A stretch of DNA of 64,000 nt from Cytophagaceae bacterium (GTDB lineage: Bacteria > Bacteroidota > Bacteroidia > Cytophagales > Flexibacteraceae), in contig JAIXYP010000043.1 in assembly GCA_027490155.1 (NCBI GenBank), positions 1 through 64,000 on the forward strand. Reading direction: 5' to 3'. Of this stretch, positions 13,273 through 32,400 are shown in pieces (position 1 is the first letter of the stretch; the number at the start of each line of letters is the position of its first letter). The position numbers and the translations under genes were made by a program. Below the pieces are notes generated by a model, which was not told the origin of the DNA, made no database searches, and saw nothing but the letters and a program-made list of their open reading frames with translations.

Positions 13273-13316
13273 ATGATTAATTGGTCCAAAAAGCCAGTAC
13301 TTCCCCATCTAACAGA

Positions 13317-13324
13317 TATATTTG
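13317..13324 (+). promoter_or_regulatory. -7 box that favours the later start of the GEVED/PKD gene
   Basis: TATATTTG fits TAnnTTTG exactly and lies inside the longest possible reading frame (ATG at 13273). Transcription from here would begin near 13330, so translation would have to use the ATG at 13402. No TTG is found at the right -33 distance. Confidence 0.33.
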
Positions 13325-13401
13325 TAACCTTACACCAATTGCAATTTGGCGGATTGTTTCCAGTCCAGATTGCTGATCCAGAAATAGCTCCAGCCTTGGT
13401 C

Positions 13402-16400
13402 ATGACCAATACCACTACACGATTAGGGTTAAACCCGAACGCTTTAGTACATACATTTTCAAAACCGTTTTGGTGGGTACTTGCCTTGTGCAGTCTGATA
13501 ATGCTAAGGCCCATCTCGAGCCAAGGCCAAGTTTGCAGCCAGACCCCAACATGTGTACCCGGGACTGCCACTAACCCACTTGCAGGAGCCTTTGGCACTG
13601 GTATTTCAAACGTAACCCTAGGGGGGACATTATCCGTTCCGGGCGGAGGAGCTACCGCAGGATACCGCAATTTTAAATGTGCTCAGGTATTGGTCGGTAG
13701 TGCTGGTGCGCCATTTAGCATCTCAGTCACGACAGCCGTTAATGTCAATGAAAACGTCCGGGTTTGGGTAGACTGGAATAACGACGAAGCCTTTGACCCT
13801 GTGACCGAGCTGGCCTTCAGTAGTGATAACCGCAAGGTCCATACTGGTAGTATCGTTCCATCAGCGATTGCCAAAACTGATACAATCCTACGCATCCGGA
13901 TCCAATCCGACAACGTAGCCTCACCCATCCCAACTGTTTGTAGCACACCGGAGTACGGTCAAGCTGTTGATCTTGGTATCAGCCTTGTTACCAACGTCAA
14001 CAAACCGATTGCCAACTTCGCCACTCCGGACTCAGTTACATGTACTGGTCAAGTCCAGTTTTACGACCTTAGCATTAACGCACCGTCAACATGGGTTTGG
14101 TCATTTGGCGATGGCGGGTTCAGCACCCTCCAGAATCCGATTTACCAGTACAATCGCCCTGGCCTCTATACTGTCCAGCTCATCACGTCTAACAACAACG
14201 GTACGGACACCCTGATTAAGCAAGCCTATGTGCTGTACCGAGATTCGTTACCAGTTGCTGCTGCTTGCGTACCTAACGTGACCACTCCTTGCTGCAATTA
14301 TGGCGTCAGCCGTTTCAGATTTGCAGATATTAATACAGCATCGCTTGGAACCACGCCACAAAACGGGTATCAGGATCTGACCTGCAAGTACCAAACAGAT
14401 ATTTATCCGGGGACTAGCTATACGCTCAGTTTCCTGACCAATTCTACCTTGGCACAGGACTCGCGCCTGTACATGGACCTAAATGGTGACGGTGACTTTT
14501 TTGACAGTGGAGAGGAGGTCTGGAGCCGGCTCAACACTACCAACCCGACAGGTTCGTTTGTAGCCCCAAGCAATGTTACGCTCAACAAGTTTATCCGGAT
14601 GCGCCTCATCAGCGACTATACTGGCAGTAGCTTTACAAGCTGTGCTGGTGTTGTCAATGGTGCTGTGCAGGACTTCACGGTTGTCTTCCGGACAAATACC
14701 AATCCACCAATTGCTGACTTTGTCGTTAACCAGACTTCGTTCTGTACCTCGACAGTTTCCTTTACAAGTACCAGCCGCAACAGCGTCGATAGTTTGTTCT
14801 GGGACTTTGGCGATGGAGGATCAGCGGTCACCACATCCTCAAGCCTTGTGGTACAGCATACCTACACCACTTTCGGTACCTATAATGTTCGTTTGATTGT
14901 TAAGGGTCAATTTGGTGTGGACACACTTCTGCGGCAGAATGCAGCCGTCTACACGGGTAGCCCACGTGCAGCTTGCCCGCAACAGAGTGCCCAGCGCCCT
15001 TGTTGTACATTCGGTATCTACCGGTTCAAGATAGGCACCCTCGATCAAACCTCGGGACCTAGCAACGAAGGATACAAGGATTTTACTTGCCAGTCTGGAA
15101 CACGTCTAATCGCTGGTGGTCGTTATGATGTCACCGTCCAACTATCCCCAGCCAATCAAGAGCAGGTAGCAGGCTGGCTTGACCTTAATAATGATGGGTC
15201 ATTTTCGTCTGGCGAGCAGATATTCTATATGACTGGCCTCGGTACCATCACGCAATCTATCCTGATTCCGAGTAATGTGGTGATCGGGGTTCCGTTGCGG
15301 TTGCGTCTTGTTTCAGATGCCGTCCAAACAGGTATAACTCTTGGTGCATGTACCCGCTCCTCATTTGGTCAGGCCGAGGATTACACCGTCTTCATAGCCT
15401 CCAACCAATTGCCACCTGTCGCTGCCTTCGGGACTAGATTTCCTGTGACCTGCCGTCGGGACATTACATTTAACGATAGCTCAACCAACGTGCCTGCCAC
15501 CTGGCATTGGGACTTTGGCGATGGCGACACCAGTGATTTGCAGAACCCTGTTCATACTTATTCTAACCCTGGCAACTATACCGTTTCGTTAACAGTAACC
15601 AATGCACTCGGTACCAATACGTTTACCCGTACCTCTTACATACAAATACTGCCCACTGTGGTCAAGCCTGCCGTTTGCATACCGACCACAGTAAACGCCT
15701 GCTGCAACTTTAGCCTAGACAGGATCATAATAGGTAATGCCTTAAATTACCGAACTGGACTTTATAATCCGGTGACCTATACCAATCTGTCTTGTGATGT
15801 TACGTTTAGCCTCAACACGGGCAAGCTTTATCCTGTAACGCTATCTACTTTGGCCCCGCGTGACAACACCGTTATCTATATCGACTTTAACAACAATGGC
15901 CAGTTCGAGACCAACGAAATGGTGTTCTCAGGAGTGGGTTCAAAAGTGCATACAGGGATGATCAATATCCCCGCTAGTGCAGTAAAAGACACTTTGCTCC
16001 GGATGCGGATCATGAACGAGGCACCGTTTACCTCGGCCATTATTGCTCCATGCGCAAGGCTCCAGAATGGCCAAACTTGGGACTTTGGTGTTGTCCTTAG
16101 GGGTGCCACTGCTCCACCTGTGGCAGCATTTTCGGCCTCAACACTTCAGACCTGTTATGGCGGTATCCAGTTCACAGATACCTCAGCTGCTATTGCTGAC
16201 AAATGGGAGTGGTCCTTTGGTGACGGCACCACAAGTGTCGAGTCCAACCCCTTGCACCGCTACAGCACCCCTGGTATCTACACCGTCAAGCTCAAGGTCA
16301 GCAATGCCTTTGGTGTTGACTCGTTGACTAAAATAGCTTATATCAATGTCAGCGGAAGCTGGGGTGCCAAGCCAGCTTCGTGTGCCCCTGTTACCTCTAG

Positions 16401-17085
16401 TGGTGCCAACAACTTTGGGATCACGAACGTCAACCTCGTTAACATCAACCGCAACTCGGGCTTTGGTGTCGAGGGCTATCAGGACTTTACCTGCTCTGAC
16501 AGCACCTCCATCAATTCGCAAACACAATATCGCCTCCGGATATCAGTCGGCACAGCAGCCTTGCACCAAGTCCGTGTCTATCTGGACGTCAACGACAATG
16601 GTGTCCTCGAGGATGTAGAGACTTTGGTTTCCTCCACCTTTAGTGGTACCCAGAGCCTAAACCTTATTGTAAACCCAGGCTTCAGTGGCCAAGTTTACGA
16701 TCGTTTCGTCCGGATGCGGATCATGGCTACTCCAGTTGGCCAGGCTGTCAACTCTTGCAATACCATCATCCAAGGCCAAGCAGAGGACTATTCTGTTAAC
16801 GTGCGCCTCATAGTCGGTATCGATCAAGCGATCTTGGCCTCTAGCCTCAACATTTATCCCAACCCAACCACTGGTCGTGTCCTGATCAAGGCCGATGCTG
16901 TTAAGGAAGGTATAGTGAAGCTCTCCGTTGTTAATGCCCTCGGTCAGGTCGTTAAGCAAATGGACGCAGATGGCACCAATGGCCTTAGCGAAGATATTGA
17001 TCTCGATGGTTTGCCGAAAGGTATCTACTACATCAAGGTGCAGCAGCAGCAGGCAGTTGTCACCAAACGAATCGTCCTGCAATAG
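13402..17085 (+). CDS. Large T9SS surface protein with alternating GEVED and PKD domains
   Basis: Predicted secreted or surface adhesin of about 1227 aa. A signal peptide with core FWWVLALCSLIMLRP lies near residues 24-43. Five GEVED domains (each with QDLTC/QDFTC, a Dx(N/D)xDG-type loop, FIRMRL and GQAEDY motifs) alternate with four PKD domains, marked WSFGDGG, WDFGDGG, WDFGDGD and WSFGDGT near residues 233, 467, 703 and 937. The last 80 residues (LNIYPNPTTGRVLI to TKRIVLQ) are a type-A T9SS sorting domain. Acidic loops such as DWNNDEAFD and DLNGDGDFFD could bind calcium. An in-frame ATG at 13273 would add 43 residues, but a -7 box inside that stretch and the signal-peptide position favour 13402. 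Confidence 0.88.
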   Translation: MTNTTTRLGLNPNALVHTFSKPFWWVLALCSLIMLRPISSQGQVCSQTPTCVPGTATNPLAGAFGTGISNVTLGGTLSVPGGGATAGYRNFKCAQVLVGSAGAPFSISVTTAVNVNENVRVWVDWNNDEAFDPVTELAFSSDNRKVHTGSIVPSAIAKTDTILRIRIQSDNVASPIPTVCSTPEYGQAVDLGISLVTNVNKPIANFATPDSVTCTGQVQFYDLSINAPSTWVWSFGDGGFSTLQNPIYQYNRPGLYTVQLITSNNNGTDTLIKQAYVLYRDSLPVAAACVPNVTTPCCNYGVSRFRFADINTASLGTTPQNGYQDLTCKYQTDIYPGTSYTLSFLTNSTLAQDSRLYMDLNGDGDFFDSGEEVWSRLNTTNPTGSFVAPSNVTLNKFIRMRLISDYTGSSFTSCAGVVNGAVQDFTVVFRTNTNPPIADFVVNQTSFCTSTVSFTSTSRNSVDSLFWDFGDGGSAVTTSSSLVVQHTYTTFGTYNVRLIVKGQFGVDTLLRQNAAVYTGSPRAACPQQSAQRPCCTFGIYRFKIGTLDQTSGPSNEGYKDFTCQSGTRLIAGGRYDVTVQLSPANQEQVAGWLDLNNDGSFSSGEQIFYMTGLGTITQSILIPSNVVIGVPLRLRLVSDAVQTGITLGACTRSSFGQAEDYTVFIASNQLPPVAAFGTRFPVTCRRDITFNDSSTNVPATWHWDFGDGDTSDLQNPVHTYSNPGNYTVSLTVTNALGTNTFTRTSYIQILPTVVKPAVCIPTTVNACCNFSLDRIIIGNALNYRTGLYNPVTYTNLSCDVTFSLNTGKLYPVTLSTLAPRDNTVIYIDFNNNGQFETNEMVFSGVGSKVHTGMINIPASAVKDTLLRMRIMNEAPFTSAIIAPCARLQNGQTWDFGVVLRGATAPPVAAFSASTLQTCYGGIQFTDTSAAIADKWEWSFGDGTTSVESNPLHRYSTPGIYTVKLKVSNAFGVDSLTKIAYINVSGSWGAKPASCAPVTSSGANNFGITNVNLVNINRNSGFGVEGYQDFTCSDSTSINSQTQYRLRISVGTAALHQVRVYLDVNDNGVLEDVETLVSSTFSGTQSLNLIVNPGFSGQVYDRFVRMRIMATPVGQAVNSCNTIIQGQAEDYSVNVRLIVGIDQAILASSLNIYPNPTTGRVLIKADAVKEGIVKLSVVNALGQVVKQMDADGTNGLSEDIDLDGLPKGIYYIKVQQQQAVVTKRIVLQ

Positions 17086-17222: not shown

Positions 17223-17500
17223 TGTTTGACCAATTGGGTCAGTTGCCAGATTCCGCCTTAGTCCGTTACCTCGAAATTTAGCCAGCAAACGTTCCAACCA
17301 CAGTCTTGTTTTTTTGGTCTAACGTGCGTTAGCCCTAACCTGAAGTCTGATCAATACTCATTTTTATGCCCTTTACAGTCAGCCTATCATCAATATTTCC
17401 GACTGATAGGTTGCGTACAGTGCCCAGCCTTACAATTATGTCCTCTGGCCACCCAAGTGGCCATGCAGGGCAATCCACCACCCCTTTTGGTCTTAAGTCT

Positions 17501-20500
17501 ATGATCTTATCCTTACACCAGCGTTCTACTTTGTTCAGGCACCTATTTATACTTGGGTTGTTTTGCCTCGGTTTGTTCGGGATGCCAAGTGCCAAAGCCA
17601 ACCACATCATGGGTGGGGAGATGACCTATTTGTATATAGGTACCTCAGGCACCAACTTGCAATACTCGGTTTCGATGAACGTCTACGCTGACCGCAACGG
17701 TGCTGGCTGGAATTTGTCAAACCCGGCCAATCCTGCATCAGGCAACCCTGTCCAGATTGATTTTTCGGCCTACAGTGCGGACAACAACTCTAAGTTGCTA
17801 GATCAAAGTTTTCAGTCCCCGGGTGGTGGGACAACCATTCAGTTTGCGAACCCCGAATTGCCTTCCAACTGTGCTGGCCTAACATGCCTTAATGGTTTTG
17901 TAATCACCCGCTCGAGCGTCACGTTTACCGTGACTTTGCCATTTACATTCAATGGTTATTACTTCTTGTATGGCAACCGTACTAGGAATGCTGCCGTTAC
18001 GAACCTGCAAAACCCAACCAGCCTTGGTATGTCGATGTACCAGGCTGTCCCTGGTCCGCAGTATGCTAACAGCTCCCCTCAGTTTACGGATAACGCCATC
18101 CCTACCATCTTCATCAACGATACGAGCTACTTCGTCAACTCGGCCTTCGACCCAGATGGAGACCGTTTGGTGTATTCCTTTACCCCAGCCCTCAACGCCA
18201 CCGGCAATAACAACCCTGCCTCTTGGGCTGTCCCTGCCAACTGTAACTACAACGCCACCTACAGTTTTTCAGATCCCCTAGGGCCTAACGGAACAAGCTC
18301 CATCGATGCCAGCACAGGTCTGACCAAATATTTTGCGACCAACTCAGGGGCCTACGTCTGCGCCATTGCCATCCAAGAGTTCAGGCGCCTAAGTAATGGT
18401 ACCGAAATTCAGATAGGTACCACCCGGCGTGAGCTGCAACTACTTGTTGTTTCTACTGGTAGCTTACCGGGCCAGTGCCCTGTCAATCAAACGCCTGTCC
18501 AGGCAGGTAGCTATCCAACCAATATCAATATTACCCAAGGCCAGTCAGTCTCATTCAACGTACAATACCGCGATCCAGACGCTAACATTGTCACACTTTC
18601 AGGCACAGGTAACATTTTGTCCGGTGCTAACGGATACAATGGGCCGCGTGCCTCGTTCAATCCACTCAATGGTACTGTAGCTCGAGGCACCTTTACCTGG
18701 AATACTACCTGCGCCGTACCTGCCAACACCTACTCGATTGTAATCACTGCCAAGGATGATGGCTGTCCACCTAAGTCCATTGTCCAGACCGTTAATATCA
18801 ACGTCTCAAGATTCACGGGGCCTACCCTGATTACTGGTGCGGCAAACCCGTGTTCGGGCGTGGTCAATAACTATGTTGTGTCCGGACCGACGACTGGCAT
18901 CACTCGCCTCTGGAAGGTAACGGGTGGGACCATTGTAGGTCAATCCGTCCTGAAGGATACCGTAAAGGTTAACTGGACCTCAACCACTGGAACAGTGCGA
19001 TTAGTCAGTACTAGCTCGGCCGGGTGTAAGGACTCGGTATCTTTTAACGTCAATACAGCTGTAGTTAACCCTGTTATTGCGGGGGCCAACCGCACGATAT
19101 GCGCTACAGCTTCTACTACTCTAACTGCTACAGGTGGCAACGGAACGTTTGTTTGGACCACTTTGGCTGGTGCATCTGCCGGCACAGGTGCTTCCTTGGT
19201 TGTGAGGCCTACCACTACAACTAGCTATGTCGTTAGCAGCACCTCTGGTAGTTGCGCAGCACGGGATACCGTAGTCGTAACAGTTATACCAAAGGCTATA
19301 GCAGGGGCTGATATTACCAGTTGCGGTAATTTCTCAGGGCAAGTAGGGACTGCTGCTGTAAGTGGTACCACCTATAGCTGGACATCATCTCCAGCCGGTG
19401 TCACCTTCGTGGACCCTATTACAACAGCCAACCCTCGTATTTCAATCACTAATAACGGCACCTATCAGCTGATTGTTACGGCTACCAATGTCGCGAATGC
19501 GTGTGCTAGCAGGGATACAATTAACGTAACTGTTATTGCACGCCCTCGCGAACCTAGGTTTGCAGACTCGACCATTTGTTCTGGCGTAACTGTTATCATC
19601 GGGCCCAACACCGCTCAGGCTGGCGTTACCTACCTATGGGGTAATATCGCAGGCTTTAGCACACCAGTCAATACAGCGGCCAACCCAGCAGTGACCCTCA
19701 GCAATACCGGGTCCACATTTTTAGTGGTCAAATATCCTGTGACAGCCACCAATACTACCACTGGATGTTCACGTACCGACACGGTAACCTTGCGTGTCCG
19801 TCCTGTTATCAACCCGATCTTAAATACGTCGGTCAGTGCTTGTACTGGCGAGTCAGTGGTAATTGGCCCAACACCAACAGCTGGCCTTACCTATACTTGG
19901 TCGCCCGCCACATTCCTGAGTGCAACCAATGTGGCCAACCCAACTTTTAACGATCCGACAGCTCCGGCGGGTGGGGCATTTTGGTCCTATTTGTTAACTA
20001 TTCGGGATGCCTTTGGCTGTCAGATTTCGAGAAATATTTTTGTTAGTGTCAACCCGGGCCCAGTTCTGAACAAGGCACGTGACATTACCATTTGCAACAA
20101 TGCGACAGGAACAATCGGCTCTAACGTTCCGACTCCAGGTGTTGTCTATAGTTGGTCTCCAACTACCGGCCTGACATCCCCTAATGCCCCGACTTCTGCC
20201 ATTAGGCTGACAACGGCTGGTACTACTGCGCAAGTCCTTCAGTATATCCTGACAGCTACCGACAATGCTTCAGGATGTGTCACTAGCGATACAGTTGCCG
20301 TAACTTTGTCTCCGAGGACTGTGGCCAATGCTGGTGCTGACCGTACGACTTGTAGTAATGTCCCAACTACGTTAGGTACTTCCTTTTCGCTACTCCATAC
20401 CTATATCTGGTCGCCAACTACCAACCTGAGTAGTGCAACATCTCCGCAACCTGTCTTCCAGGCTGTAAATACAACAGCCAGTCCAATCATTACTCGTTAT

Positions 20501-23500
20501 ATTGTTACTGTTACCAACTCCCCAACAGGATGCGCCAGTCAGGATACCGTCTTTGTTACCCTTAATGGAACCTCAGGTGGTCAACGCTTGGCAACTACAT
20601 TCTGCTCTGGGGCAGTAACTACCGTCGGGCCAGCTGCCTCTGCTGGGTTCACTTATAGCTGGACACCAACTGCTTTATTCACCAACCCGAACGTAGCGCA
20701 GCCTACCTTGGTTTCGAATACAAATACGGGTACTACACCACTTGTCCTGACAGCCTTCCGCACCGCAACCAATGCCACTAGCGGATGTAGCAGCCAAGAC
20801 ACCCTCACAATCACGATCAACCCACTGCCAACCGCTAATGCTGGTGCTGATATTGCATTATGTAATGGTGTATCAGGTACGATAGGGACAGCTGGTGGTA
20901 GTTTGGTAGGTGCCACATATAGCTGGTCTCCAACAACAGGCCTTACCAATCCGAACATACCTTCCACTACCGTCCGGTTAACTAATTCAGGCTCAACACC
21001 ACAGATCCTGAAGTATTTCTTGACAGTGACCAACACCGTTACTGGCTGCCAAAACAAGGACTCTGTTTTGGTGACCGTACAGCCACTAACTGTCGCCAAC
21101 GCAGGTGCAGACCGCACAACTTGTAGCAATGTGCCTACTACACTTGGGGTGGCTACTTTGGCCAACCATACTTATAGCTGGTCACCAACGTCCAACCTGA
21201 CGGGGGCTACATCTGCCCAACCTGTTTTCTTGGGCACCAACACATCAGCCACTCCAATTGTTACCCGCTACATAGTTACTGTCACCAACACCACGACAGG
21301 ATGTATTAACCAGGATACAGTCAATGTTACCCTCAATGGCACCTCTGTTGGACAACGTCTCAGCACCACCTTCTGCTCTGGCGCTGTAACTACTGTCGGT
21401 CCAGCAGCCTCTGCTGGGTTCACTTATAGCTGGACACCAACTTCTTTATTCACTAACCCGAATGTAGCTCAGCCTACTCTGGTTTCGAACACAAACACTG
21501 GCACAACCCCACTTGTGCTCACAACTTTCCGGACTGTTACCAATGCCATAACCGGATGTAGTAGCCAAGACACCCTAACCATAACGATCAACCCGCTGCC
21601 AACAGCCAATGCTGGTGCTGATATTTTCCTTTGTAATGATGTAGTTGGTACCATCGGTGCTCCAGGAGGCATCCCTGCGGGGGCAACATATAGCTGGACA
21701 CCAACAACTGGACTAGCTACGCCAAATGCAACCCAGACCACCATTAGGCTAACCACTGCTGGCAACACCCCTCAAGTCCTGAAATACTTCCTGACTGTGA
21801 CCAACACAACAACTGGATGTCAGAATAGGGACTCCGTATTGGTCACATTGCAGCCTTTGACCGTTGCCAACGCTGGTGCTGACCGCACAACTTGTAGCAA
21901 TGTGCCTACCACCCTTGGCGTCACGACCTTGGCCAACCATACTTATAGCTGGTCACCGACGACCAACCTGACCGGCGCAACAACGGCACAACCAGTTTTC
22001 CAAGCAACTAACAACACGGCTAGTCCTATCGTAACACGCTATATTGTTAATGTTACCAACTCAGTTACAGGTTGTGTAGCACAGGATAGTGTTTTCGTTA
22101 CTGTCAACGGGATTGCAGGTGGCCAGCAGTTAACCACAACTTTCTGCTCAGGTGCTGTCACAACCGTAGGGCCAGCTACTTCAACAGGTTTTACCTATAG
22201 CTGGACCCCAGCTTCATTGTTCACTAATCCAAACGTAGCTCAGCCTACCCTCGTTTCTAATACCAACACGGGAAGCAACCCACTTGTCGTCACCGCCTTC
22301 CGTACCGCAATCAACACCGCAAGCGGATGTGCTAGTCAAGATACCCTCACGATCACGATTAACCCGTTGCCAGTATCCAATGCTGGTGCAGACATTGTCA
22401 TTTGTAATGACGTAATTGGTACTATCGGTGCGCCTGCCAATGGCTCTGGTATTTCTTACAGTTGGTCTCCTACGACAGGACTTACAAGCCCCACTGCAGC
22501 CCAATCAACCATAGTGCTGACATCAGCCAGCAGCAACCCGCAATTACTACAATACATCCTCACTACGACTTCTACCGTAACAGGTTGCAGCAAAAATGAT
22601 ACGGTTGTTGTTACTCTGCGTCCTAAATCAGTGGCTGATGCGGGTCAGGATAAAACGACATGTAGCAATGTCCCGGTGACAATTGGTACAGCAACTTTAG
22701 CAAACTATACCTACAGCTGGTCGCCAACTACAAACCTGACAGGTGCCACCACAGCGCAGCCGGTCTTTTTGGCCGCCAACACAACTGCCACCCCTATTGT
22801 TACTCGGTATATCGTTACAGCCATAAATGGTACCACTGGCTGCGCTAGCCAGGACACTGTTTTTGTGACGTTAAATGGCGCATCTACTGGCCAGCGACTA
22901 ACTGCTACATTCTGTTCAGGGGCAACGTCGGTTCTAGGTACTCCAGCCACAGTTGGCTTTTCTTATGGATGGGCACCTGCTACCTTGTTTGTTGACCCCG
23001 CAATAGCCCAACCAACCCTGGTATCAAACACCAATACTGGTACCACACCATTAGTGCTTACTGCATTCCGTACTGTCACCAATATTGCAAGTGGATGTAC
23101 GAGCCAAGATACCCTCACGATTACGATCAACCCGCTGCCCGCTTCCGTGGCAGGTGCTGATATCGCAATCTGTTCTGGTGCCAATGGTCAGTTAGGTGCT
23201 GCTGCTGTTGCTAACCGTAGCTACAGCTGGGCACCAGTAATTGGCCTCAGCAGTGCAACGGCCGCCAACCCAACAGTAACCCTGACGAACGCAACCTCGC
23301 TCCCAACTGTCAATCAGTATATCCTGACCACCACCAATACCACCACTGGTTGTACCCAAAACGATACTGTGTTGGTAACGGTCAATCCATCCGTATCGCT
23401 CTTGCCACTGACCCGCGACTCTGTTTGTTCGCTGGCCTCCTTGGTGATGGGCACCCCAGCTGCAACAGGATTTAGTTATGTATGGGCCCCGACTACTGGG

Positions 23501-26500
23501 CTTTCTGGCGCGACACTCGCCAATCCAACTCTGTCCATTATTAACAGCACGTTGGCTCCAACCTTTAATACCTATATCAGGACCACAACCAATATTAGTT
23601 CTGGCTGCGCCGTTAACGATACCTTCATCATCAAGGTTAATCCTTTGCCAGTAGTTGCACTTGGTGCTGATCAGGTGATTTGCTCTGAGCAATCAGTCAC
23701 ACTCAGCTTTGCGCCAGAAGCCAATACCAATTACAACTGGTCATTGGTTGGTGGCCTGACGACTGGCCTAACGGGCGGACTTACAATTGTTGGACCAGGC
23801 CAAGCAACTGCCACTTTCAGTAATGCAGGGCAGACGGTTCTCACACAACGGGTTCGTGCCCTTGGTACAAGCACCATTACGGGTTGTACTAAGGCTGATA
23901 CTGTCCTGATCACGGTCAATCCGTTGCCTTTGGTTAATGCCAGCACACCAGACACGCTTGTTATTTGCGCCAATGGATCTACCACACTTGGAGTTGCCCC
24001 AGCTACCGGATTTACCTACAGTTGGTCTCCAGCCACTGGCCTAACCAGCGCTAACGTTGCCAACCCAACCGTCACCCTGACCAATAATACACAACAAGCA
24101 ACCAAGGCCAAGTATATCCTGACTGTTACCAACACGGCTACTGGCTGCGTTGCGACAGATTCGGCTTGGGTACGTGTTAATCCGCTACCAATCGTGACAC
24201 TCGGTGCTGCGGATAGCTTATGTAGCCGCCAGACCATCAGTATTGGTGCTCCAGCAGTTGTTGGCTTTAGCTACCGTTGGTCACCTGCCATTGGCCTAAG
24301 CGATGTTACCGCTGCCAACCCTAGCTTGACCTTGGTCAACAATACGCAATCGGTTGTCCTGAGTCCGTACAAATTGGTCGTGACCAATATCACTACTGGT
24401 TGCAAAGATTCTGCTACGCTAACCGTCAGGGTCAATCCATTGCCGATTGCCAATGCAGGTCGTGACACTGCTACCTGTACCAATGGTGTTTTTACCCGTG
24501 GCGAAAACCCAACAGCTGGCTTTGGCTACGTCTGGTCACGTGTCAGCAACCCATCTGGCGCCAGCTTTATCGTGAGCGATACCCTGATTGCCAATCCAAC
24601 CTTCCGGATTGTGAACATCGGTACCCAACAGGTCACTGCAGTCTTCCGTGTTACCAAAACCAACTTGGTTACTGGTTGTGCCAATAGTGACACCATCAAC
24701 CTCACCTCTTACCCAAGCCCAGCTGCAATCGCCTTTGCCACTGACACTGCCACGACATGTTCTGGCATCGCAGTCAACTTAGGCCAAGCACCTGCTTTTG
24801 GGGTAACCTATAGCTGGTCACCAGCGACAGGGCTCAGCAATGCCGCTGTTGCCAATCCAACTGTTTTGCGCTCGATCACTGGCCAAGCTACTCAGACCTT
24901 CGTGTACCGATTGACAGCAACCAACCCAGTTACGGGTTGTGTGAGCATTGACTCTGTAATCCTGAAAGTATTGCCATTGCCTGAGGTAACCCTGGCACCA
25001 GACTATACTACCTGTTCTGGCTCCGGACTTACACTTGGTCAACCTGCAGTTACTGGCTTTAACTATGTCTGGTCAGGTACTACCTTCCTAAATAATGTCA
25101 ATGCCGCGCAACCGACCTATACTAGGGTATTGGCCAATGGTGCTGCACAAACCTCTGAGGTGCTGACCTTGACTATAACCAATGCCGCCAGTAATTGTGT
25201 GGCGACCTTCACAACAACCGTCAAAACGAACAGCAATCCAGTCTCTAATGCTGGTGCAAATGCCACCATTTGTTCGGATGATACTGTCACTATTGGTGCA
25301 GCTTCCTCTGCTGGTTTTAGCTATCAGTGGTTGACTTCTGCTGGTGTTCTTGATCCGGCTGCTGCTCAAACCAAGGTGACGCGCAACAATACCTCTGGTA
25401 TCCAACGCTTCGACACCCTTGTGGTGCGTACTACCAACTTGGTCACCTTGTGCTCAAGTACGGATACTACTATCTTGACTGTTAATCCACGTCCTGTATC
25501 TGCTACTATCGTTTTTGGTAGCAATACGGTTTGCCCAAATGTCACAGGTCAGCTTTACTCGGTGCCAAACCAACTTAATACTACCTATAACTGGACCATC
25601 GGTGGTGGTACCATCATGGCTGGTCAAGGCACTAACGAAATTACTGTCAACTGGGGAGGTAACAATCCCAACGCATTTGTCCAAGTGGCCCCGACCAATA
25701 TCTTCAACTGCCCTGGGGATACCCAAACCCTACCAGTTTTGATCAAGATATTGCTCAAACCATCGTTGCCAGTGGGCGATACCATCGTCTGTAGCGCCTC
25801 GCCTCGTGTCACCTATACAACAGGTGCCAACGTTGGTTCGGTTTATACCTGGTTCTGGAGTTATGACTCACTCGGTGTAACCTATATCCGTAACAGCGCA
25901 CCAACTACCAATACCTATGACATCGCCTGGACAGGCCTTGGCAAAGGCAAAGTTTGGGTCTTCGAGCGCAGCATCACTGCCAGCAATACTTGCGAAGGCT
26001 ATAGCGATACTACCCGGATTGAAGTTTTCCCAAGTCCGGACAGCAGCAAAATCATCACTGGCCCAGCTGCAGTTTGCGAGCGCACTACCTCTATTCCGTT
26101 CAGCATCCTGCCAACATTAGGTGCTACCTATCGTTGGACCGTTGTTGGTAAGCTTGCCAACACGGGTGATACAATTATGACAGGTCAAGGCACCAATGCC
26201 ATCACCGTCAATGCTGCTAAGGCAGACACCCTAGTCATTTCTGTAACGGAGACTAGTGTTAAGGGATGCGTTGGTAAAACCATCAAGGATACACTGATTA
26301 TCAACGTCTTGCCAACTGTTTTAGTCGGCAATGTGGACTCCGTTTGTTCTGGTCAACCATTAGTTATTGGTGCACCTGCTATCGCCAACTATGCTTATGC
26401 TTGGTCACCTGCCACTGGGCTCAGCAATGTCACCGCTGCTAACCCGACCTTGACCTTAACGCAGGTCGGTAGTCCAGCCAACTACAAATACTACCTGACC

Positions 26501-29500
26501 GTCACCAATACACTTACCGGTTGTAAGCGTACTGATAGCATCAACATCCGTGTAAATCCATTGCCGATTGCCTTGGCTGGTGCTGATCAAGCAGTTTGTT
26601 CAGGAGCTAATACTACACTTGGTGCGCCCCGTATAGTACGTGTGTCTTACCACTGGTCTCCTATTGGTGGTATCGCTACTGGCCTTACCGGTGGTTTGAC
26701 CCTTGCCGATACTACTTTGCCTCAACCTGCAGTGCGCTTGGTGAATGCTACCAATACCCCAATTTGGCAAAGCTTTGCGCTCTTGGTTACGGATAGTATT
26801 ACGCGTTGTGTCAACTATGATACTGTCGCTATCCGAGTCAACCCGCTGCCAATTGCGCAAGCTTTTGCTACTGATACCGCTAAACTATGCTCTGCCGTCC
26901 CTACGCTAATTGGTAGCCCAGCAGTTGACTCGCTCCGTTACCAGTGGTCAACCGTTCCGGCCCTTGCCATTACGGGTCTTAATGATGATACCCTTGCTAA
27001 CCCGACCTTAACTGTTACCCAAGTAGGTTCGGCCCTTACCCGCACTTATGTTCTGACTGTGACGAACCGCCGCAGTGGTTGTGTCAATACGGATACAGTT
27101 GTTGCCGTAATTAGCCCACTACCAGTTATTACCCGTAACCCACTTGATAGCATCTGCAGCACAGACTCTAAGGAGTTGGTTGTCGGTATCGAGCCTAATG
27201 TTCGTGTGACTTGGTCCCCAGCTACTGGCCTTAATAGGGTTGATAGTACACATGTTATCGTGTCACTTGCCAACACAACGGCTCTGCCTTTTGTCCAGAC
27301 CTATTATGTGACAGCGGTTAATCAACTAACTGGTTGTGTACAGATTGATAGTGTTAAAGTTAAAGTCAATCCGCTACCACGCACAAATGCTGGTGCTGAC
27401 CAAGTGGTCTGTACTAAGGAAATTATCAACCTTGGCGAAGCTGCTGTTACGGGTAATGTCTATCTATGGCAAGCCGGCAATGGTCTGTCAGGAGCTAACC
27501 TAACGGTGGCCAACCCATCGTTCCAGGTCCTGAATGCAACTACTGCCCCAGCTGTTTATAGCTACTTCCTGACCGTTACCAGCCCTAGTGGTTGTATTGA
27601 TCGTGATACGGTTAACGTTACAGTTAATCCGCAAATAGCAACCATTTTGCCAGCCTCAACCACGGTATGTAGTGGTCAGACTGCTCCTTTGACTAACCTC
27701 AGTTCTGTTGCAGGTCGTACCTACCAATGGTTCCCAGCGGATAGCTTGCAGGATCCGACCAACCTAGGTACCAATGTGCGCTATACACTAACTGGTGCAG
27801 TTGCCCAATCATTCACCTACCGTTTGGTAACTACTGTTACTGCAACAGGGTGTAAGGATACGTCCTTTATGGCACTCAATGTCAATCCGCTGCCAGTGAT
27901 CGAAGCTGGTATTGGCTTTGCAGTCTGTGCTACGGATAGTATTCAGATTGGTGGTATTGCCGCCATTACAGGCCAAACCTATAACTGGTCGATCACTAAT
28001 ACTGTTGCTGGTGTGACCGCTGGCATCGGTAGTACAACCACTGCCCAACCTCGCTTTGGTGCCACCAATACAACTGGGCAGCCACAACGTATCCGACTGG
28101 TACTACAGTCAACCATTGCGGCCACCGGTTGTACCACAACTGATACTACGAGTGTTGTCGTTAATCCGCTGCCTGTTGCAATCGCAAACGCCACACCAAC
28201 TGCTATCATTTGTAGCAATGGAACGGCCCAACTTGGTGCTGCTCCGGTTGCTGGCTTCAGCTATGCTTGGTCGCCTGCCACAGGTCTTAGCAGTGCCACA
28301 GTAGCGAATCCAAGTGTCACCTTGCCAAATCCAACCCAGACTGTTCAATCAACACGCTATACATTGACAGTCACGAACCTGACTACCAACTGTATCCTAA
28401 CCGATACCGTTCGGGTGATCGTCAATCCGCTGCCATTGGTTGTTGTGGGTACTGTCAATACTACCTGTAGTAATGTTGCAGCCACCATAGGTGCTCCTGC
28501 TGTTGTAGGATACACCTATAGCTGGTCTCCAGCTACTGGCCTAAGCAGTTCTACGGTCGCTAACCCAATTGTTTTGGTCAACAATAGTGGGACAACACCA
28601 CAAGTGATCAACTATCGTTTAGTTGTGACCAATGCTACAACTGGTTGTAAAGACTCAGCCAACCTTGCCTTCACTGTCGATCCGCTGCCACGTGCCTTTG
28701 CTGGTGCTGATCGTGCTGCTTGTAGTCGTGAGGTCATCACCCTTGGTGAGGCAGCCGTATTAGGCAATATCTACAGCTGGCAAGCTGGCAATGGCCTAAC
28801 AGGAACCAACCTGACGGTGGCCAACCCATCGTTCCAGGTCTTGAACACCACGACTGCCCCAGCCGTTTATAGCTACTTCCTGACTGTAACCAGCGCCAAT
28901 GGCTGTATCAACCGTGATACTGTTAGTGTAACTGTTAATCCGAAGCCTTCTACTGTTGTCAATAATTTGACCTTATGTAGTGGCGTCCAGGCACCGATCC
29001 AGGCTATTGTTCCGGTTGCTGGTGTTACTTACCAATGGTTGCCAGCTGATAGCTTGCAAGATCCAACAAACCCGAACAGCCCTGTACGCCGTACTATTGG
29101 CACCCTCACAGCCCAGACCTATACCTATCAGCTTGTGACCACCGTCACTGCCACAGGATGTAAGGACACGTCGAGCATGGTGCTAACCATCAATCCGCTG
29201 CCACGGGTCAATGCTGGACGGAGCCTATTGGTTTGCTCTAAGGATAGCATTGCCATTGGTGCGCTAAGCAGCCTACCAGGCCTTACTTATCGTTGGACAA
29301 TCACTAGCGTCTTGCCAGTTGGGGTTACTGCCACTATTGGCTCGTCAACCCTGGCCCAGCCTAACTTCGGTGGTATCAATACGACCAGCACCCCTCAGCG
29401 CATTCGTCTCTTGTTAACTGTAACCAACACGGCTACAGGTTGCCAAGCTACAGATACAACTAATGTGTTGATCAATACCTTACCAGTCGCAGTGGCCAAT

Positions 29501-31360
29501 GCCACACGGACCACTACCATCTGTGCAAACGGTACAACTGGCCTTGGTCAGGCTCCTATCGCTGGCTTCAGCTACTCTTGGTCTCCACTTGTTGGCCTCA
29601 GTAGTGGCACGGTTGCTAACCCAACCATCAGCCTCAGCAACCCAACGCAGACTGTATTGCGCACCCGCTATACCCTCACTGTCCGTAACCTATTGACCAA
29701 CTGTACCAATACTGATACTGTGCAGGTGATCGTTAATCCGTTGCCAGTTGTCAATGTCGGTACTGTAAGCTCGGCCTGTAGCAATGTGCCAGCAACCATT
29801 GGTGTCGCCCCAATTTCGGGCTATGCCTATCAGTGGACACCAAACACAGGCCTAAGCAGCAGCACCGCAGCCAACCCAACTGTTTTGGTCAATAATACTG
29901 GTACTACACCAATCGTGACGACCTACAAATTGGTCGTGACCAACGTAGTTACAGGTTGTAAGGACTCTTCTAGCCTTGTCTTCACCGTCAACCCGCTGCC
30001 TGTTGCAGAGGCTGGGGCTAATGTGGTTGTCTGTTCACGCATTCCGGCTCAGCTCGGTACAACCCCAGTTGCTGGTAACATATATAGCTGGTCTCCTGCA
30101 ATTGGCCTAAGCAACATCAATGTCGCCAACCCAACATTTACACTTGGCAATACAAGTGGTGCAGCCTTCAGCCAGCAATTTGTCCTGACCGTTACGAATG
30201 CTGCAACGGGCTGCGTCAGCACCGACAACGTCACGGTAACCCTCAACCCTGAGCCAGTGACCTTGCGTCAGTCTTATGATAGCACCGTCTGCCCACAAAC
30301 TGCCTCTGGTCGTGGCTATGGTGTCGTTGGTCTATCCGGATCGCAATACCGTTGGTTTGTGCGCGGTGGTACGCTGCTTGGTGGTGTTCAGAATGGTGTC
30401 CTGACCAATAACAACACTGTAGCAGTCAATTGGGATACTACTGCCACGAGTTTTGGCCTTCAGGTCCTAGAGGTTTCAACCACATCCTGCCAAGCTGATA
30501 CTGTCAACTTCGGCATCTTCTACAACAGTACTACCTTGTCTCAGATCGTCATAACTCAGGATCCTGTGCTTTATGATAGTGCCTTGGTTGTCAAGTACCG
30601 TGTGAACCAACTAGGACTATTGCCAAGTACTGCTCGTGTGAGGGTCTACCGTCGTGTTGCAGGCAGCAATGATGCCTTTGTTTTGGCAGGTACCGCTGCT
30701 ACTTCTGACACAATGTTCTTGGATAGGCCTGGCCAGACCAGCACCTTAGCTTATGAATATTATATCGAGCTTGATAACCTTTGTGGACGTACCAGCTCTG
30801 GTGGTGTTGCCCAGTCTAGCCTCCGCCTAATTGGTACAGGTAGCAATGCCGATCAGATCAGCGCCTTGACCTGGAACGCTTACACTGGTTGGGCCAATGG
30901 TGTCGAGCGTTATGAGATCTATCGCAAACTCGACACGGAATTGAATTGGAGCTCAACACCGTATGCTACTGTTGCTGGCAGCGCCACCCGTTGGCAAGCC
31001 GCCAATGGTGGAGATGCATTCAGTCAACAGTACCGTATTGTTGCAGTAGAGCGTAACTCCTCAGTTCGTGCCCAGAGTAACGAGGTGCTCCTCCAGTTCG
31101 AGAACAAAATCAGCGAATGGAATACCATCACCCCTAACAATGATGGCAAAAACGACGCATTCGTTGTTGACAACCTAGAGCTCTACGGCAAGTATGAAAT
31201 TCGGATCTATAACCGCCATGGCTTAGAGATCTTTACCAGCGCCGACTATCGCAACGATTGGAAGGCCGATGGCCAACCTGCGGGTACCTACTTCTACATC
31301 CTGAAGGTCGAAGGTGCACGCGCCCAGACCCTCAAAGGTTGGATAGAGGTCGTCAAATAG
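17501..31360 (+). CDS. Giant T9SS type-B adhesin with about 45 Ig-like repeats
   Basis: Predicted surface adhesin of about 4619 aa. A signal peptide (LFRHLFILGLFCLGLFGMPSAKA) is followed by ANHIMGGEMTY, the N-terminal module common to very large Bacteroidota surface proteins (to about residue 430). Then come some 45 Ig-like repeats of about 85 aa. Each starts with a (A)GAD-type strand containing one Cys, has a YSWSPxTGLSS core, and ends xTGCxxxDTVxVTVNPLP with a second Cys, so each could hold one disulfide. Some repeats (near 25.5-26.3 kb and 30.3 kb) are PKD-like variants. The last 80 residues (NTITPNNDGKNDAF to LKGWIEVVK) are a CHU_C/type-B T9SS sorting domain, as in SprB-like adhesins. Start set at 17501; an ATG at 17366 would add 45 unlikely residues. 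Confidence 0.9.
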   Translation: MILSLHQRSTLFRHLFILGLFCLGLFGMPSAKANHIMGGEMTYLYIGTSGTNLQYSVSMNVYADRNGAGWNLSNPANPASGNPVQIDFSAYSADNNSKLLDQSFQSPGGGTTIQFANPELPSNCAGLTCLNGFVITRSSVTFTVTLPFTFNGYYFLYGNRTRNAAVTNLQNPTSLGMSMYQAVPGPQYANSSPQFTDNAIPTIFINDTSYFVNSAFDPDGDRLVYSFTPALNATGNNNPASWAVPANCNYNATYSFSDPLGPNGTSSIDASTGLTKYFATNSGAYVCAIAIQEFRRLSNGTEIQIGTTRRELQLLVVSTGSLPGQCPVNQTPVQAGSYPTNINITQGQSVSFNVQYRDPDANIVTLSGTGNILSGANGYNGPRASFNPLNGTVARGTFTWNTTCAVPANTYSIVITAKDDGCPPKSIVQTVNINVSRFTGPTLITGAANPCSGVVNNYVVSGPTTGITRLWKVTGGTIVGQSVLKDTVKVNWTSTTGTVRLVSTSSAGCKDSVSFNVNTAVVNPVIAGANRTICATASTTLTATGGNGTFVWTTLAGASAGTGASLVVRPTTTTSYVVSSTSGSCAARDTVVVTVIPKAIAGADITSCGNFSGQVGTAAVSGTTYSWTSSPAGVTFVDPITTANPRISITNNGTYQLIVTATNVANACASRDTINVTVIARPREPRFADSTICSGVTVIIGPNTAQAGVTYLWGNIAGFSTPVNTAANPAVTLSNTGSTFLVVKYPVTATNTTTGCSRTDTVTLRVRPVINPILNTSVSACTGESVVIGPTPTAGLTYTWSPATFLSATNVANPTFNDPTAPAGGAFWSYLLTIRDAFGCQISRNIFVSVNPGPVLNKARDITICNNATGTIGSNVPTPGVVYSWSPTTGLTSPNAPTSAIRLTTAGTTAQVLQYILTATDNASGCVTSDTVAVTLSPRTVANAGADRTTCSNVPTTLGTSFSLLHTYIWSPTTNLSSATSPQPVFQAVNTTASPIITRYIVTVTNSPTGCASQDTVFVTLNGTSGGQRLATTFCSGAVTTVGPAASAGFTYSWTPTALFTNPNVAQPTLVSNTNTGTTPLVLTAFRTATNATSGCSSQDTLTITINPLPTANAGADIALCNGVSGTIGTAGGSLVGATYSWSPTTGLTNPNIPSTTVRLTNSGSTPQILKYFLTVTNTVTGCQNKDSVLVTVQPLTVANAGADRTTCSNVPTTLGVATLANHTYSWSPTSNLTGATSAQPVFLGTNTSATPIVTRYIVTVTNTTTGCINQDTVNVTLNGTSVGQRLSTTFCSGAVTTVGPAASAGFTYSWTPTSLFTNPNVAQPTLVSNTNTGTTPLVLTTFRTVTNAITGCSSQDTLTITINPLPTANAGADIFLCNDVVGTIGAPGGIPAGATYSWTPTTGLATPNATQTTIRLTTAGNTPQVLKYFLTVTNTTTGCQNRDSVLVTLQPLTVANAGADRTTCSNVPTTLGVTTLANHTYSWSPTTNLTGATTAQPVFQATNNTASPIVTRYIVNVTNSVTGCVAQDSVFVTVNGIAGGQQLTTTFCSGAVTTVGPATSTGFTYSWTPASLFTNPNVAQPTLVSNTNTGSNPLVVTAFRTAINTASGCASQDTLTITINPLPVSNAGADIVICNDVIGTIGAPANGSGISYSWSPTTGLTSPTAAQSTIVLTSASSNPQLLQYILTTTSTVTGCSKNDTVVVTLRPKSVADAGQDKTTCSNVPVTIGTATLANYTYSWSPTTNLTGATTAQPVFLAANTTATPIVTRYIVTAINGTTGCASQDTVFVTLNGASTGQRLTATFCSGATSVLGTPATVGFSYGWAPATLFVDPAIAQPTLVSNTNTGTTPLVLTAFRTVTNIASGCTSQDTLTITINPLPASVAGADIAICSGANGQLGAAAVANRSYSWAPVIGLSSATAANPTVTLTNATSLPTVNQYILTTTNTTTGCTQNDTVLVTVNPSVSLLPLTRDSVCSLASLVMGTPAATGFSYVWAPTTGLSGATLANPTLSIINSTLAPTFNTYIRTTTNISSGCAVNDTFIIKVNPLPVVALGADQVICSEQSVTLSFAPEANTNYNWSLVGGLTTGLTGGLTIVGPGQATATFSNAGQTVLTQRVRALGTSTITGCTKADTVLITVNPLPLVNASTPDTLVICANGSTTLGVAPATGFTYSWSPATGLTSANVANPTVTLTNNTQQATKAKYILTVTNTATGCVATDSAWVRVNPLPIVTLGAADSLCSRQTISIGAPAVVGFSYRWSPAIGLSDVTAANPSLTLVNNTQSVVLSPYKLVVTNITTGCKDSATLTVRVNPLPIANAGRDTATCTNGVFTRGENPTAGFGYVWSRVSNPSGASFIVSDTLIANPTFRIVNIGTQQVTAVFRVTKTNLVTGCANSDTINLTSYPSPAAIAFATDTATTCSGIAVNLGQAPAFGVTYSWSPATGLSNAAVANPTVLRSITGQATQTFVYRLTATNPVTGCVSIDSVILKVLPLPEVTLAPDYTTCSGSGLTLGQPAVTGFNYVWSGTTFLNNVNAAQPTYTRVLANGAAQTSEVLTLTITNAASNCVATFTTTVKTNSNPVSNAGANATICSDDTVTIGAASSAGFSYQWLTSAGVLDPAAAQTKVTRNNTSGIQRFDTLVVRTTNLVTLCSSTDTTILTVNPRPVSATIVFGSNTVCPNVTGQLYSVPNQLNTTYNWTIGGGTIMAGQGTNEITVNWGGNNPNAFVQVAPTNIFNCPGDTQTLPVLIKILLKPSLPVGDTIVCSASPRVTYTTGANVGSVYTWFWSYDSLGVTYIRNSAPTTNTYDIAWTGLGKGKVWVFERSITASNTCEGYSDTTRIEVFPSPDSSKIITGPAAVCERTTSIPFSILPTLGATYRWTVVGKLANTGDTIMTGQGTNAITVNAAKADTLVISVTETSVKGCVGKTIKDTLIINVLPTVLVGNVDSVCSGQPLVIGAPAIANYAYAWSPATGLSNVTAANPTLTLTQVGSPANYKYYLTVTNTLTGCKRTDSINIRVNPLPIALAGADQAVCSGANTTLGAPRIVRVSYHWSPIGGIATGLTGGLTLADTTLPQPAVRLVNATNTPIWQSFALLVTDSITRCVNYDTVAIRVNPLPIAQAFATDTAKLCSAVPTLIGSPAVDSLRYQWSTVPALAITGLNDDTLANPTLTVTQVGSALTRTYVLTVTNRRSGCVNTDTVVAVISPLPVITRNPLDSICSTDSKELVVGIEPNVRVTWSPATGLNRVDSTHVIVSLANTTALPFVQTYYVTAVNQLTGCVQIDSVKVKVNPLPRTNAGADQVVCTKEIINLGEAAVTGNVYLWQAGNGLSGANLTVANPSFQVLNATTAPAVYSYFLTVTSPSGCIDRDTVNVTVNPQIATILPASTTVCSGQTAPLTNLSSVAGRTYQWFPADSLQDPTNLGTNVRYTLTGAVAQSFTYRLVTTVTATGCKDTSFMALNVNPLPVIEAGIGFAVCATDSIQIGGIAAITGQTYNWSITNTVAGVTAGIGSTTTAQPRFGATNTTGQPQRIRLVLQSTIAATGCTTTDTTSVVVNPLPVAIANATPTAIICSNGTAQLGAAPVAGFSYAWSPATGLSSATVANPSVTLPNPTQTVQSTRYTLTVTNLTTNCILTDTVRVIVNPLPLVVVGTVNTTCSNVAATIGAPAVVGYTYSWSPATGLSSSTVANPIVLVNNSGTTPQVINYRLVVTNATTGCKDSANLAFTVDPLPRAFAGADRAACSREVITLGEAAVLGNIYSWQAGNGLTGTNLTVANPSFQVLNTTTAPAVYSYFLTVTSANGCINRDTVSVTVNPKPSTVVNNLTLCSGVQAPIQAIVPVAGVTYQWLPADSLQDPTNPNSPVRRTIGTLTAQTYTYQLVTTVTATGCKDTSSMVLTINPLPRVNAGRSLLVCSKDSIAIGALSSLPGLTYRWTITSVLPVGVTATIGSSTLAQPNFGGINTTSTPQRIRLLLTVTNTATGCQATDTTNVLINTLPVAVANATRTTTICANGTTGLGQAPIAGFSYSWSPLVGLSSGTVANPTISLSNPTQTVLRTRYTLTVRNLLTNCTNTDTVQVIVNPLPVVNVGTVSSACSNVPATIGVAPISGYAYQWTPNTGLSSSTAANPTVLVNNTGTTPIVTTYKLVVTNVVTGCKDSSSLVFTVNPLPVAEAGANVVVCSRIPAQLGTTPVAGNIYSWSPAIGLSNINVANPTFTLGNTSGAAFSQQFVLTVTNAATGCVSTDNVTVTLNPEPVTLRQSYDSTVCPQTASGRGYGVVGLSGSQYRWFVRGGTLLGGVQNGVLTNNNTVAVNWDTTATSFGLQVLEVSTTSCQADTVNFGIFYNSTTLSQIVITQDPVLYDSALVVKYRVNQLGLLPSTARVRVYRRVAGSNDAFVLAGTAATSDTMFLDRPGQTSTLAYEYYIELDNLCGRTSSGGVAQSSLRLIGTGSNADQISALTWNAYTGWANGVERYEIYRKLDTELNWSSTPYATVAGSATRWQAANGGDAFSQQYRIVAVERNSSVRAQSNEVLLQFENKISEWNTITPNNDGKNDAFVVDNLELYGKYEIRIYNRHGLEIFTSADYRNDWKADGQPAGTYFYILKVEGARAQTLKGWIEVVK
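20318..23395 (+). repeat. Four-copy higher-order repeat of about 770 bp inside the giant adhesin
   Basis: A three-domain block (AGADRTTCSNVP unit, GGQRLxTTFCSG unit, AGADI unit) occurs four times in tandem. The shared TGTAG(T/C)AATG site falls at 20351, 21122, 21893 and 22661, giving periods of 771, 771 and 768 bp, all multiples of three. DNA identity is visibly highest between copies 2 and 3; copy 4 has diverged most. Confidence 0.85.
27380..30001 (+). repeat. Two-copy higher-order repeat of 1311 bp inside the giant adhesin
   Basis: A five-domain block is duplicated: the TGGTGCTGA site at 27391 recurs at 28702, exactly 1311 bp (437 codons) later. Unit order (LGEAAV...WQAGNGL, ADSLQDP, ITxTVxxGVTA, ICxNGTxxLG, TVxxxCSNV) is the same in both copies, and stretches such as GGTGGCCAACCCATCGTTCC are identical. 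Confidence 0.85.
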
Positions 31361-31629: not shown

Positions 31630-32400
31630 ATGGGGGCAAGTGACGAGATTAAGGACTGGGCAAAACAAACAATTGAGACGCTGGTCAGCCAGAACTACCG
31701 CATAGCTGAGGCGCTACATTTTCTCGGCATTCGGTTTCAGGACTATGCAAATTATACTTGGGAGGAGCTTTGCCAAGCCCGTGGCCTTCAGCCTGATGTC
31801 TTGGTGCGCGAAATGCAAGTAGTTGGCCTCAACCCCAGTGCCAATAACCTTGAGCTGATCCAGTACCCAGCAGAGCTGGTATTGGCCTATCTGCGTCATG
31901 CCCACCATCAGTTCATCAAGGTGCGGTTGCCTTTCATCATGCAGCTTTTGGACCAAACCGATTGGTCGGCCCTGCCAGCAGAGTCTCCTGTGCAGGATCT
32001 GAAGATTGTGTTCCCAGACTTCGCTCAGGACTTTATCTGGCATATTTATGAGGAAGAGGATGAGCTCTTTGGCTATATCGACCTTTTGATATCAGCTGTC
32101 AAGGGGCAAGCCAAGCATAGCCAGGTGTATTTTGCAATGGAGAAGCAATGTATCCATCACCATGCGTCTGACCATGAAGCACATGATGGCGAAATGCGTG
32201 GCCTACGTCAGATGACGAATAACTTCATACCCGAACCAGACGCTCCGCTGAGCATCAAGGTGCTGTACGCAGAGCTCGCCACCTTAGAGCGTGAGCTGAT
32301 GGTACATGCCAATATCGAGAACCGTATTTTGTTCCCCAAGGCCCTTAAGTTAGAGCATGAGGTGCGTTACCATGTTTTATTTAGGTCACGCCTCAACTAA
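31630..32400 (+). CDS. Hemerythrin-domain protein related to RIC/ScdA iron-sulfur repair proteins
   Basis: Cytoplasmic protein (256 aa) with the two-part plan of the RIC/YtfE/ScdA di-iron proteins that repair iron-sulfur clusters after nitrosative or oxidative damage. The N-terminal ScdA_N-like part (about 15-60) keeps the helical pattern but lacks the FCCGG cysteines: the site reads FLGIRFQDYANYTWEEL. The hemerythrin part keeps its ligand pattern: RHAHH near residue 93, WHIYEEEDELF near 137, the SDHEAHDGEM helix and HANIENRILFP near 222. Di-iron binding is therefore likely, while the cysteine-dependent function is doubtful. It is followed 6 bp later by ruvX, probably in one operon. Confidence 0.8.
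   Translation: MGASDEIKDWAKQTIETLVSQNYRIAEALHFLGIRFQDYANYTWEELCQARGLQPDVLVREMQVVGLNPSANNLELIQYPAELVLAYLRHAHHQFIKVRLPFIMQLLDQTDWSALPAESPVQDLKIVFPDFAQDFIWHIYEEEDELFGYIDLLISAVKGQAKHSQVYFAMEKQCIHHHASDHEAHDGEMRGLRQMTNNFIPEPDAPLSIKVLYAELATLERELMVHANIENRILFPKALKLEHEVRYHVLFRSRLN

Follow-up and report, generated by a model that had tools for sequence, protein, structure and literature searches.

A giant type B T9SS surface protein whose 45-unit stalk probably grew by duplication of unit blocks

Introduction

Several groups of described proteins resemble the giant surface protein analysed here. Grappling hook protein A (GhpA) of Aureispira sp. CCB-QB1 is likewise a giant protein exported by the T9SS (PMC11205867), and structures of it have been solved (PDB 9flp, 9fls, 9flu, 9flv, 9flw, 9flx, 9fly and 9g8b). 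Its hook is heptameric and takes hold of the flagella of prey. The SprB-type T9SS type B adhesins of Flavobacterium johnsoniae are giant and repetitive and carry a type B sorting domain (PMC9143113, PMC12618676). Periscope proteins (SasG, Rib, Sgo_0707) possess a stalk of repeated folded domains. Strains differ in these repeats, which show high identity, and the variation is reportedly most extreme where repeat identity is highest (PMC8201768). Domain repeats usually expand by duplicating several domains together (Bjorklund et al. 2006, PMC1553488), with duplication units of seven domains in nebulin, four in FN3 and five in cadherin (PMC1553488).

The present protein shares features with all of these. 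GhpA is the closest solved structure to its units, both by sequence and by fold: the shaft of GhpA is built from two-cysteine Ig-like units as well (profile match E=4.5e-132, 27 stretches, residues 1239-5775), and GhpA structures are the best fold matches of the present units (Z 11.2 to 8.8). However, neither the N-terminal region nor the C-terminal 370 aa of the present protein matches GhpA at E<=1, and the genome contains no type VI VipB/TssC gene of the ixotrophy machinery. Thus, a shaft unit is shared with GhpA, but no hook is indicated. The likeness to the SprB-type system lies in size, repetitiveness and sorting domain; it extends to SprA and the PorP/SprF-family shuttles encoded in the present genome, but no SprF-like gene was recognised beside the present gene. 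As in Periscope proteins, the number of stalk domains differs between genomes. In contrast to them, the repeat copies share 63-72% DNA identity with a longest exact match of 36 bp, and adjacent units share at most 48% protein identity. Unlike the multi-domain duplications of PMC1553488, the present case is bacterial, involves two block sizes and can be set against a congener that is one block shorter.

Results

ORF calling in the window (the whole 64-kb stretch of DNA that was analysed) revealed one giant gene, whose parts are listed in Table 1. Read by eye, its likely true start is the ATG at 17501, followed by a signal peptide (MILSL...SAKA) and a mature N-terminus at about residue 79. The protein consists of a beta-rich N-terminal region, 45 two-cysteine units of about 86 aa each that are Ig/PKD-like, and a C-terminal sorting domain. 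The second cysteine of every unit served as the cut point when the array was divided. Three of them, u27-u29, are of PKD_6 type and are retained near the C-terminal end in homologues. The predicted model of the N-terminal region (pLDDT 79.8) gave generic Ig/cadherin-type matches only, all with low TM-scores, in a fold search, which therefore suggests no ligand. A unit triplet was predicted to form three Ig-like beads (pLDDT 90.6).

Table 1. Features of the giant gene and of its repeat blocks (positions in the window)
Feature	Position	Strand	Basis or remark
Giant T9SS type B surface protein	17366..31360	+	4664 codons; ORF calling, CHU_C match
Conserved N-terminal region, ~403 aa, beta-rich, Ig/cadherin-like	17603..18811	+	defines orthologous family
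Units u01-u05, without block duplication	18812..20053	+	unit segmentation
Triplet T1 (u06 A, u07 B, u08 C)	20054..20821	+	offset scan, segmentation, identities, tree
36-bp exact match, longest between copies	20636..20671	+	repeated at 21407
Triplet T2 (u09 A, u10 B, u11 C)	20822..21592	+	offset scan, segmentation, identities, tree
B-C-A stretch u10-u12, no counterpart at same place in G001	21083..21853	+	exactly 771 bp; conditional on G001 assembly
Triplet T3 (u12 A, u13 B, u14 C)	21593..22363	+	offset scan, segmentation, identities, tree
Triplet T4 (u15 A, u16 B, u17 C)	22364..23131	+	offset scan, segmentation, identities, tree
Units u18-u33, diverged	23132..27370	+	unit segmentation
Five-unit block P1 (u34-u38)	27371..28681	+	offset 1311 bp, identities, tree
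Five-unit block P2 (u39-u43)	28682..29992	+	offset 1311 bp; 65% DNA identity to P1
Units u44 and u45	29993..30523	+	unit segmentation; several homologues keep u45 as their last unit
CHU_C / T9SS type B C-terminal sorting domain	31121..31351	+	PF13585 match E=5e-22

The sorting domain matched PF13585 (CHU_C) with 78.3 bits (cut-off 27), while the match to TIGR04131 (32.7 bits) fell just under the cut-off of 35. Since the genome encodes SprA (2362 bits) and five PorP-family genes, export through SprA with PorP-type anchoring is plausible. No porP/sprF gene lies directly downstream of the giant gene, where a hemerythrin-domain protein is encoded (31630-32400), and no PorP match was found on the contig. 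Adjacency of a cognate porP/sprF gene is common but not universal in type B cargo and is therefore not defining; orphan type B substrates have been described (PMC12618676). Fibrillar adhesins combine stalk repeats with a known adhesive domain. Among Pfam and NCBIfam profiles, stalk-type domains but no known adhesive domain matched the giant protein, its N-terminal region was assigned to no family, and the label 'adhesin' is one that we infer. On either side of the gene, another large protein of surface type is encoded: a PKD/GEVED protein of 1270 aa with a type A sorting domain (13273-17085) and a protein of 2023 aa without recognised family (33247-39318).

Units 6-17 (20054-23131) form four in-register copies of a triplet A-B-C, at steps of 771, 771 and 768 bp. 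The motif TGTAGYAATG, encoding Cys-Ser-Asn of the B unit, occurs at 20351, 21122, 21893 and 22661, which reproduces exactly the marker spacings of 771, 771 and 768 bp given in an earlier note on this DNA. In total, the 64-kb window contains eight matches of the motif versus 0.4 expected. The earlier note had also predicted diagonals at an offset of about 770 bp in a self dot plot. When the gene was compared with itself at successive offsets without gaps, the strongest diagonal indeed came out at 771 bp (86% identity in its best 240-bp window), followed by 1311, 1542, 1539, 2310 and 768 bp, and codon-shuffled sequences never exceeded 43% identity. Unit pairs in register within a block shared 66% DNA identity on average, versus 48% for out-of-register pairs and 43% for all others. 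Between whole triplets, DNA identities were 0.69 (T1-T2), 0.67 (T1-T3), 0.72 (T2-T3) and 0.63 for each pairing with T4 (T1-T4, T2-T4, T3-T4). Tandem Repeats Finder missed both this and the five-unit repeat described below because its longest period is 500.

The phase of the array cannot be fixed: the same repeat reads A-B-C from 20054 to 23131 and B-C-A from 20318 to 23395. The earlier note placed the four copies correctly, but its B-C-A phase includes u18, a unit that resembles the A class less. Its statement that copies 2 and 3 are most alike holds in the A-B-C phase (T2-T3, 71.9%), but not in its own phase, where copies 1 and 2 score highest (74.1%).

A maximum-likelihood tree recovered the classes A, B and C as one clade each, with the units of the congener included (support 98/89, 99/99 and 100/100). 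The closest relatives of each unit in the triplet array sit 3, 6 or 9 units off. Across the units, similarity peaks at separations of 3, 6 and 9 and of 5, whereas amino acid identity at separation 1 never exceeds 48%. Duplication of single units was therefore rejected, and on this point the earlier proposal that whole three-domain blocks rather than single domains were multiplied stands.

The same proposal is too narrow in taking the triplet as the sole unit of growth. The gene contains a second higher-order repeat, absent from the earlier account: two copies of a five-unit block (P1 and P2 in Table 1), with a period of 1311 bp. All five corresponding unit pairs (u34/u39, u35/u40, u36/u41, u37/u42 and u38/u43) are sisters in the maximum-likelihood tree. 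Three further TGTAGYAATG matches (28211, 28466 and 29777) fall within this repeat. The triplet clades and the five sister pairs together point to growth in three-unit and five-unit blocks.

The triplet copies are old, not recent. Synonymous sites are near saturation (NG86 dS between triplets at least 1.4 and often undefined), DNA identity amounts to 63-72% and the longest exact match measures 36 bp; the suggestion that the duplication may be ongoing finds no support in these values. Of the fourfold sites, 62% differ between T2 and T3; for the N-terminal part of the gene, 34% of these sites differ between the present genome and the congener G001. Exact matches of 29 bp join copies at 21110/21881 and 21158/21929. 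Identity is uneven along the copies (u08-u11 83% versus u06-u09 52%) and runs of agreement between copies exceed permutation, as gene conversion between copies would give.

Homologues of the N-terminal region were detected in 26 of the 146 genomes of the order (E<=1e-25). Apart from the present protein (4664 aa), open frames in this family reach at most 2550 aa, that is 55% of its length, although some are cut by contig ends. The homologues share a common start (u01/u02-like) and a common end (u27-u28-u29(-u45)-like) around a variable middle. Recent-looking duplications have a period of mainly one unit in two genomes (G003, G021), two units in two others (G038, G118), three units in G007 and five in G009; others show mixed periods, and several lack duplications altogether. 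Thus, three is not a privileged cassette size, and a fixed three-unit cassette was rejected as a rule for the family. We also considered whether the triplets of G007 and G004 (263 aa period) descend from the same ancestral triplet; their units do not correspond to A, B and C in that order. Among the homologues compared, the A-B-C order does not occur outside the genus.

The sole other genome of the genus compared was G001 (MAG CANHWS01, 'Cytophagaceae bacterium RE-27jun17-70'); scanning the contigs of other genomes returned this congener and one distant match only. Its orthologue is 94% identical at the amino acid level over the first 896 residues, and the contig ends inside the array with the unit order A1 B1 C1 A2 B2 C2 A3, just after gA3. 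By tree, gA1 corresponds to u06, gC1 to u08, gA2 to u09, gB2 to u13 and gA3 to u15 of T4 (91% aa identity), while gC2 is nearest to u14. Between the same flanking units (T1 and T4), G001 therefore has exactly one triplet fewer. From the remainder of the array, only the last 216 residues of the protein were found in the G001 assembly, a fragmented MAG; the triplet might lie beyond the contig end, or the contig might be a misjoin.

In block 2 of G001, informative sites side with T2 through block position 407 (56:27) and with T3 over positions 408-515 (3:32; Fisher p 3e-9 for a breakpoint picked from these data themselves). This change comes just after the region of greatest likeness between T2 and T3, which contains the shared 29-bp exact matches, and positions 408-515 run to the end of the B unit, while the C unit is mixed. 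Judged by these sites, the mosaic fits recombination between copies; the mixed C unit calls for later conversion or other events besides a single clean crossover. In the protein tree, u12 branches outside (u09,gA2) with 97/96 support, and u11 lies outside the group of u08 and gC1, a topology which favours an older duplication followed by loss in G001. At the DNA level, holding u09 and u12 together (a gain in the present genome) was borderline in the AU test (p-AU 0.051), grouping of u07 and u10 was not rejected (p-AU 0.27), and u08 and u11 appeared as weakly supported sisters. As far as these comparisons of two genomes indicate, the stalk seems to change length by whole blocks.

Discussion

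We consider it likely that the gene encodes a T9SS type B fibre with a 45-bead stalk that grew by block duplication, followed by recombination between the copies. A stalk of two-cysteine Ig/PKD-like beads would have been lengthened by duplicating contiguous blocks of units, so that one triplet is now present four times and one quintet twice. Later, homologous recombination between in-register copies may have added or removed whole triplets, while gene conversion between copies would have produced the mosaics. The fibre may act as a spacer or in adhesion, and the number of units would then set the reach of the N-terminal region.

The copies are strongly diverged at synonymous sites, as one would also expect if the triplet pattern were ancient and kept by selection on alternating domain types for structural reasons, in the absence of any block duplication. 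We regard this as highly improbable, because A, B and C are each monophyletic within the gene and its congener, in-register copies retain DNA similarity with exact matches of 29-36 bp at an offset of 771, and no homologue outside the genus shows the A-B-C order. Conversely, the number of triplets might be unstable within the species today, making the stalk a variable one of the Periscope type. The congener that differs by one triplet, the conversion-like runs between copies and the 36-bp exact repeat would agree with such instability, but Periscope variation reportedly peaks at the highest repeat identity (PMC8201768) and the present copies are 63-72% identical in DNA, which renders current instability quite unlikely.

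The difference from the congener might itself be an assembly artefact, the repeat having been misjoined or collapsed in the MAG of G001. That assembly comprises 390 contigs, the relevant one ends inside the array, and short-read assemblies often miscount adhesin repeats (PMC6868369). However, the longest exact in-register repeat in the assembled G001 array measures 23 bp, which is little to cause a collapse with the k-mer sizes commonly used, and what is missing amounts to precisely one block and keeps the frame. An assembly artefact is therefore unlikely in our view, though it deserves to be reckoned with. A more far-reaching reading sees a GhpA-related T9SS fibre that catches cells or particles, its reach tuned by block exchange while like neighbours are avoided (adjacent units <50% identical). 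We rate it as very unlikely; if it were true, exchanging blocks with unlike neighbours would permit length change without misfolding.

A fibre grown by block duplication would overturn nothing, since duplication of several domains is already the usual mode for domain repeats. It would rather provide a clean bacterial case of a giant stalk growing block by block, with a sister species for comparison. In addition, the analysis links many unannotated surface proteins of Bacteroidota to the shaft units of GhpA, the sole relative with a solved structure.

Other repeat proteins were observed alongside. An 881-aa frame near a contig start (L069, G000:C30:1-18000) contains 90-aa repeats of 83-90% DNA identity and is a stronger candidate than the triplet array for current variation in length. 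A 3275-aa frame (L070, G000:C31) carries a 166-aa duplication (94% DNA identity in the best window), and its contig also harbours a PorP-family gene (C31:21678-22658). In related genera, three giant proteins built from Ig units (L079, L080 and L090) have unit repeats of 95-97% DNA identity and are candidates for active copy-number change.
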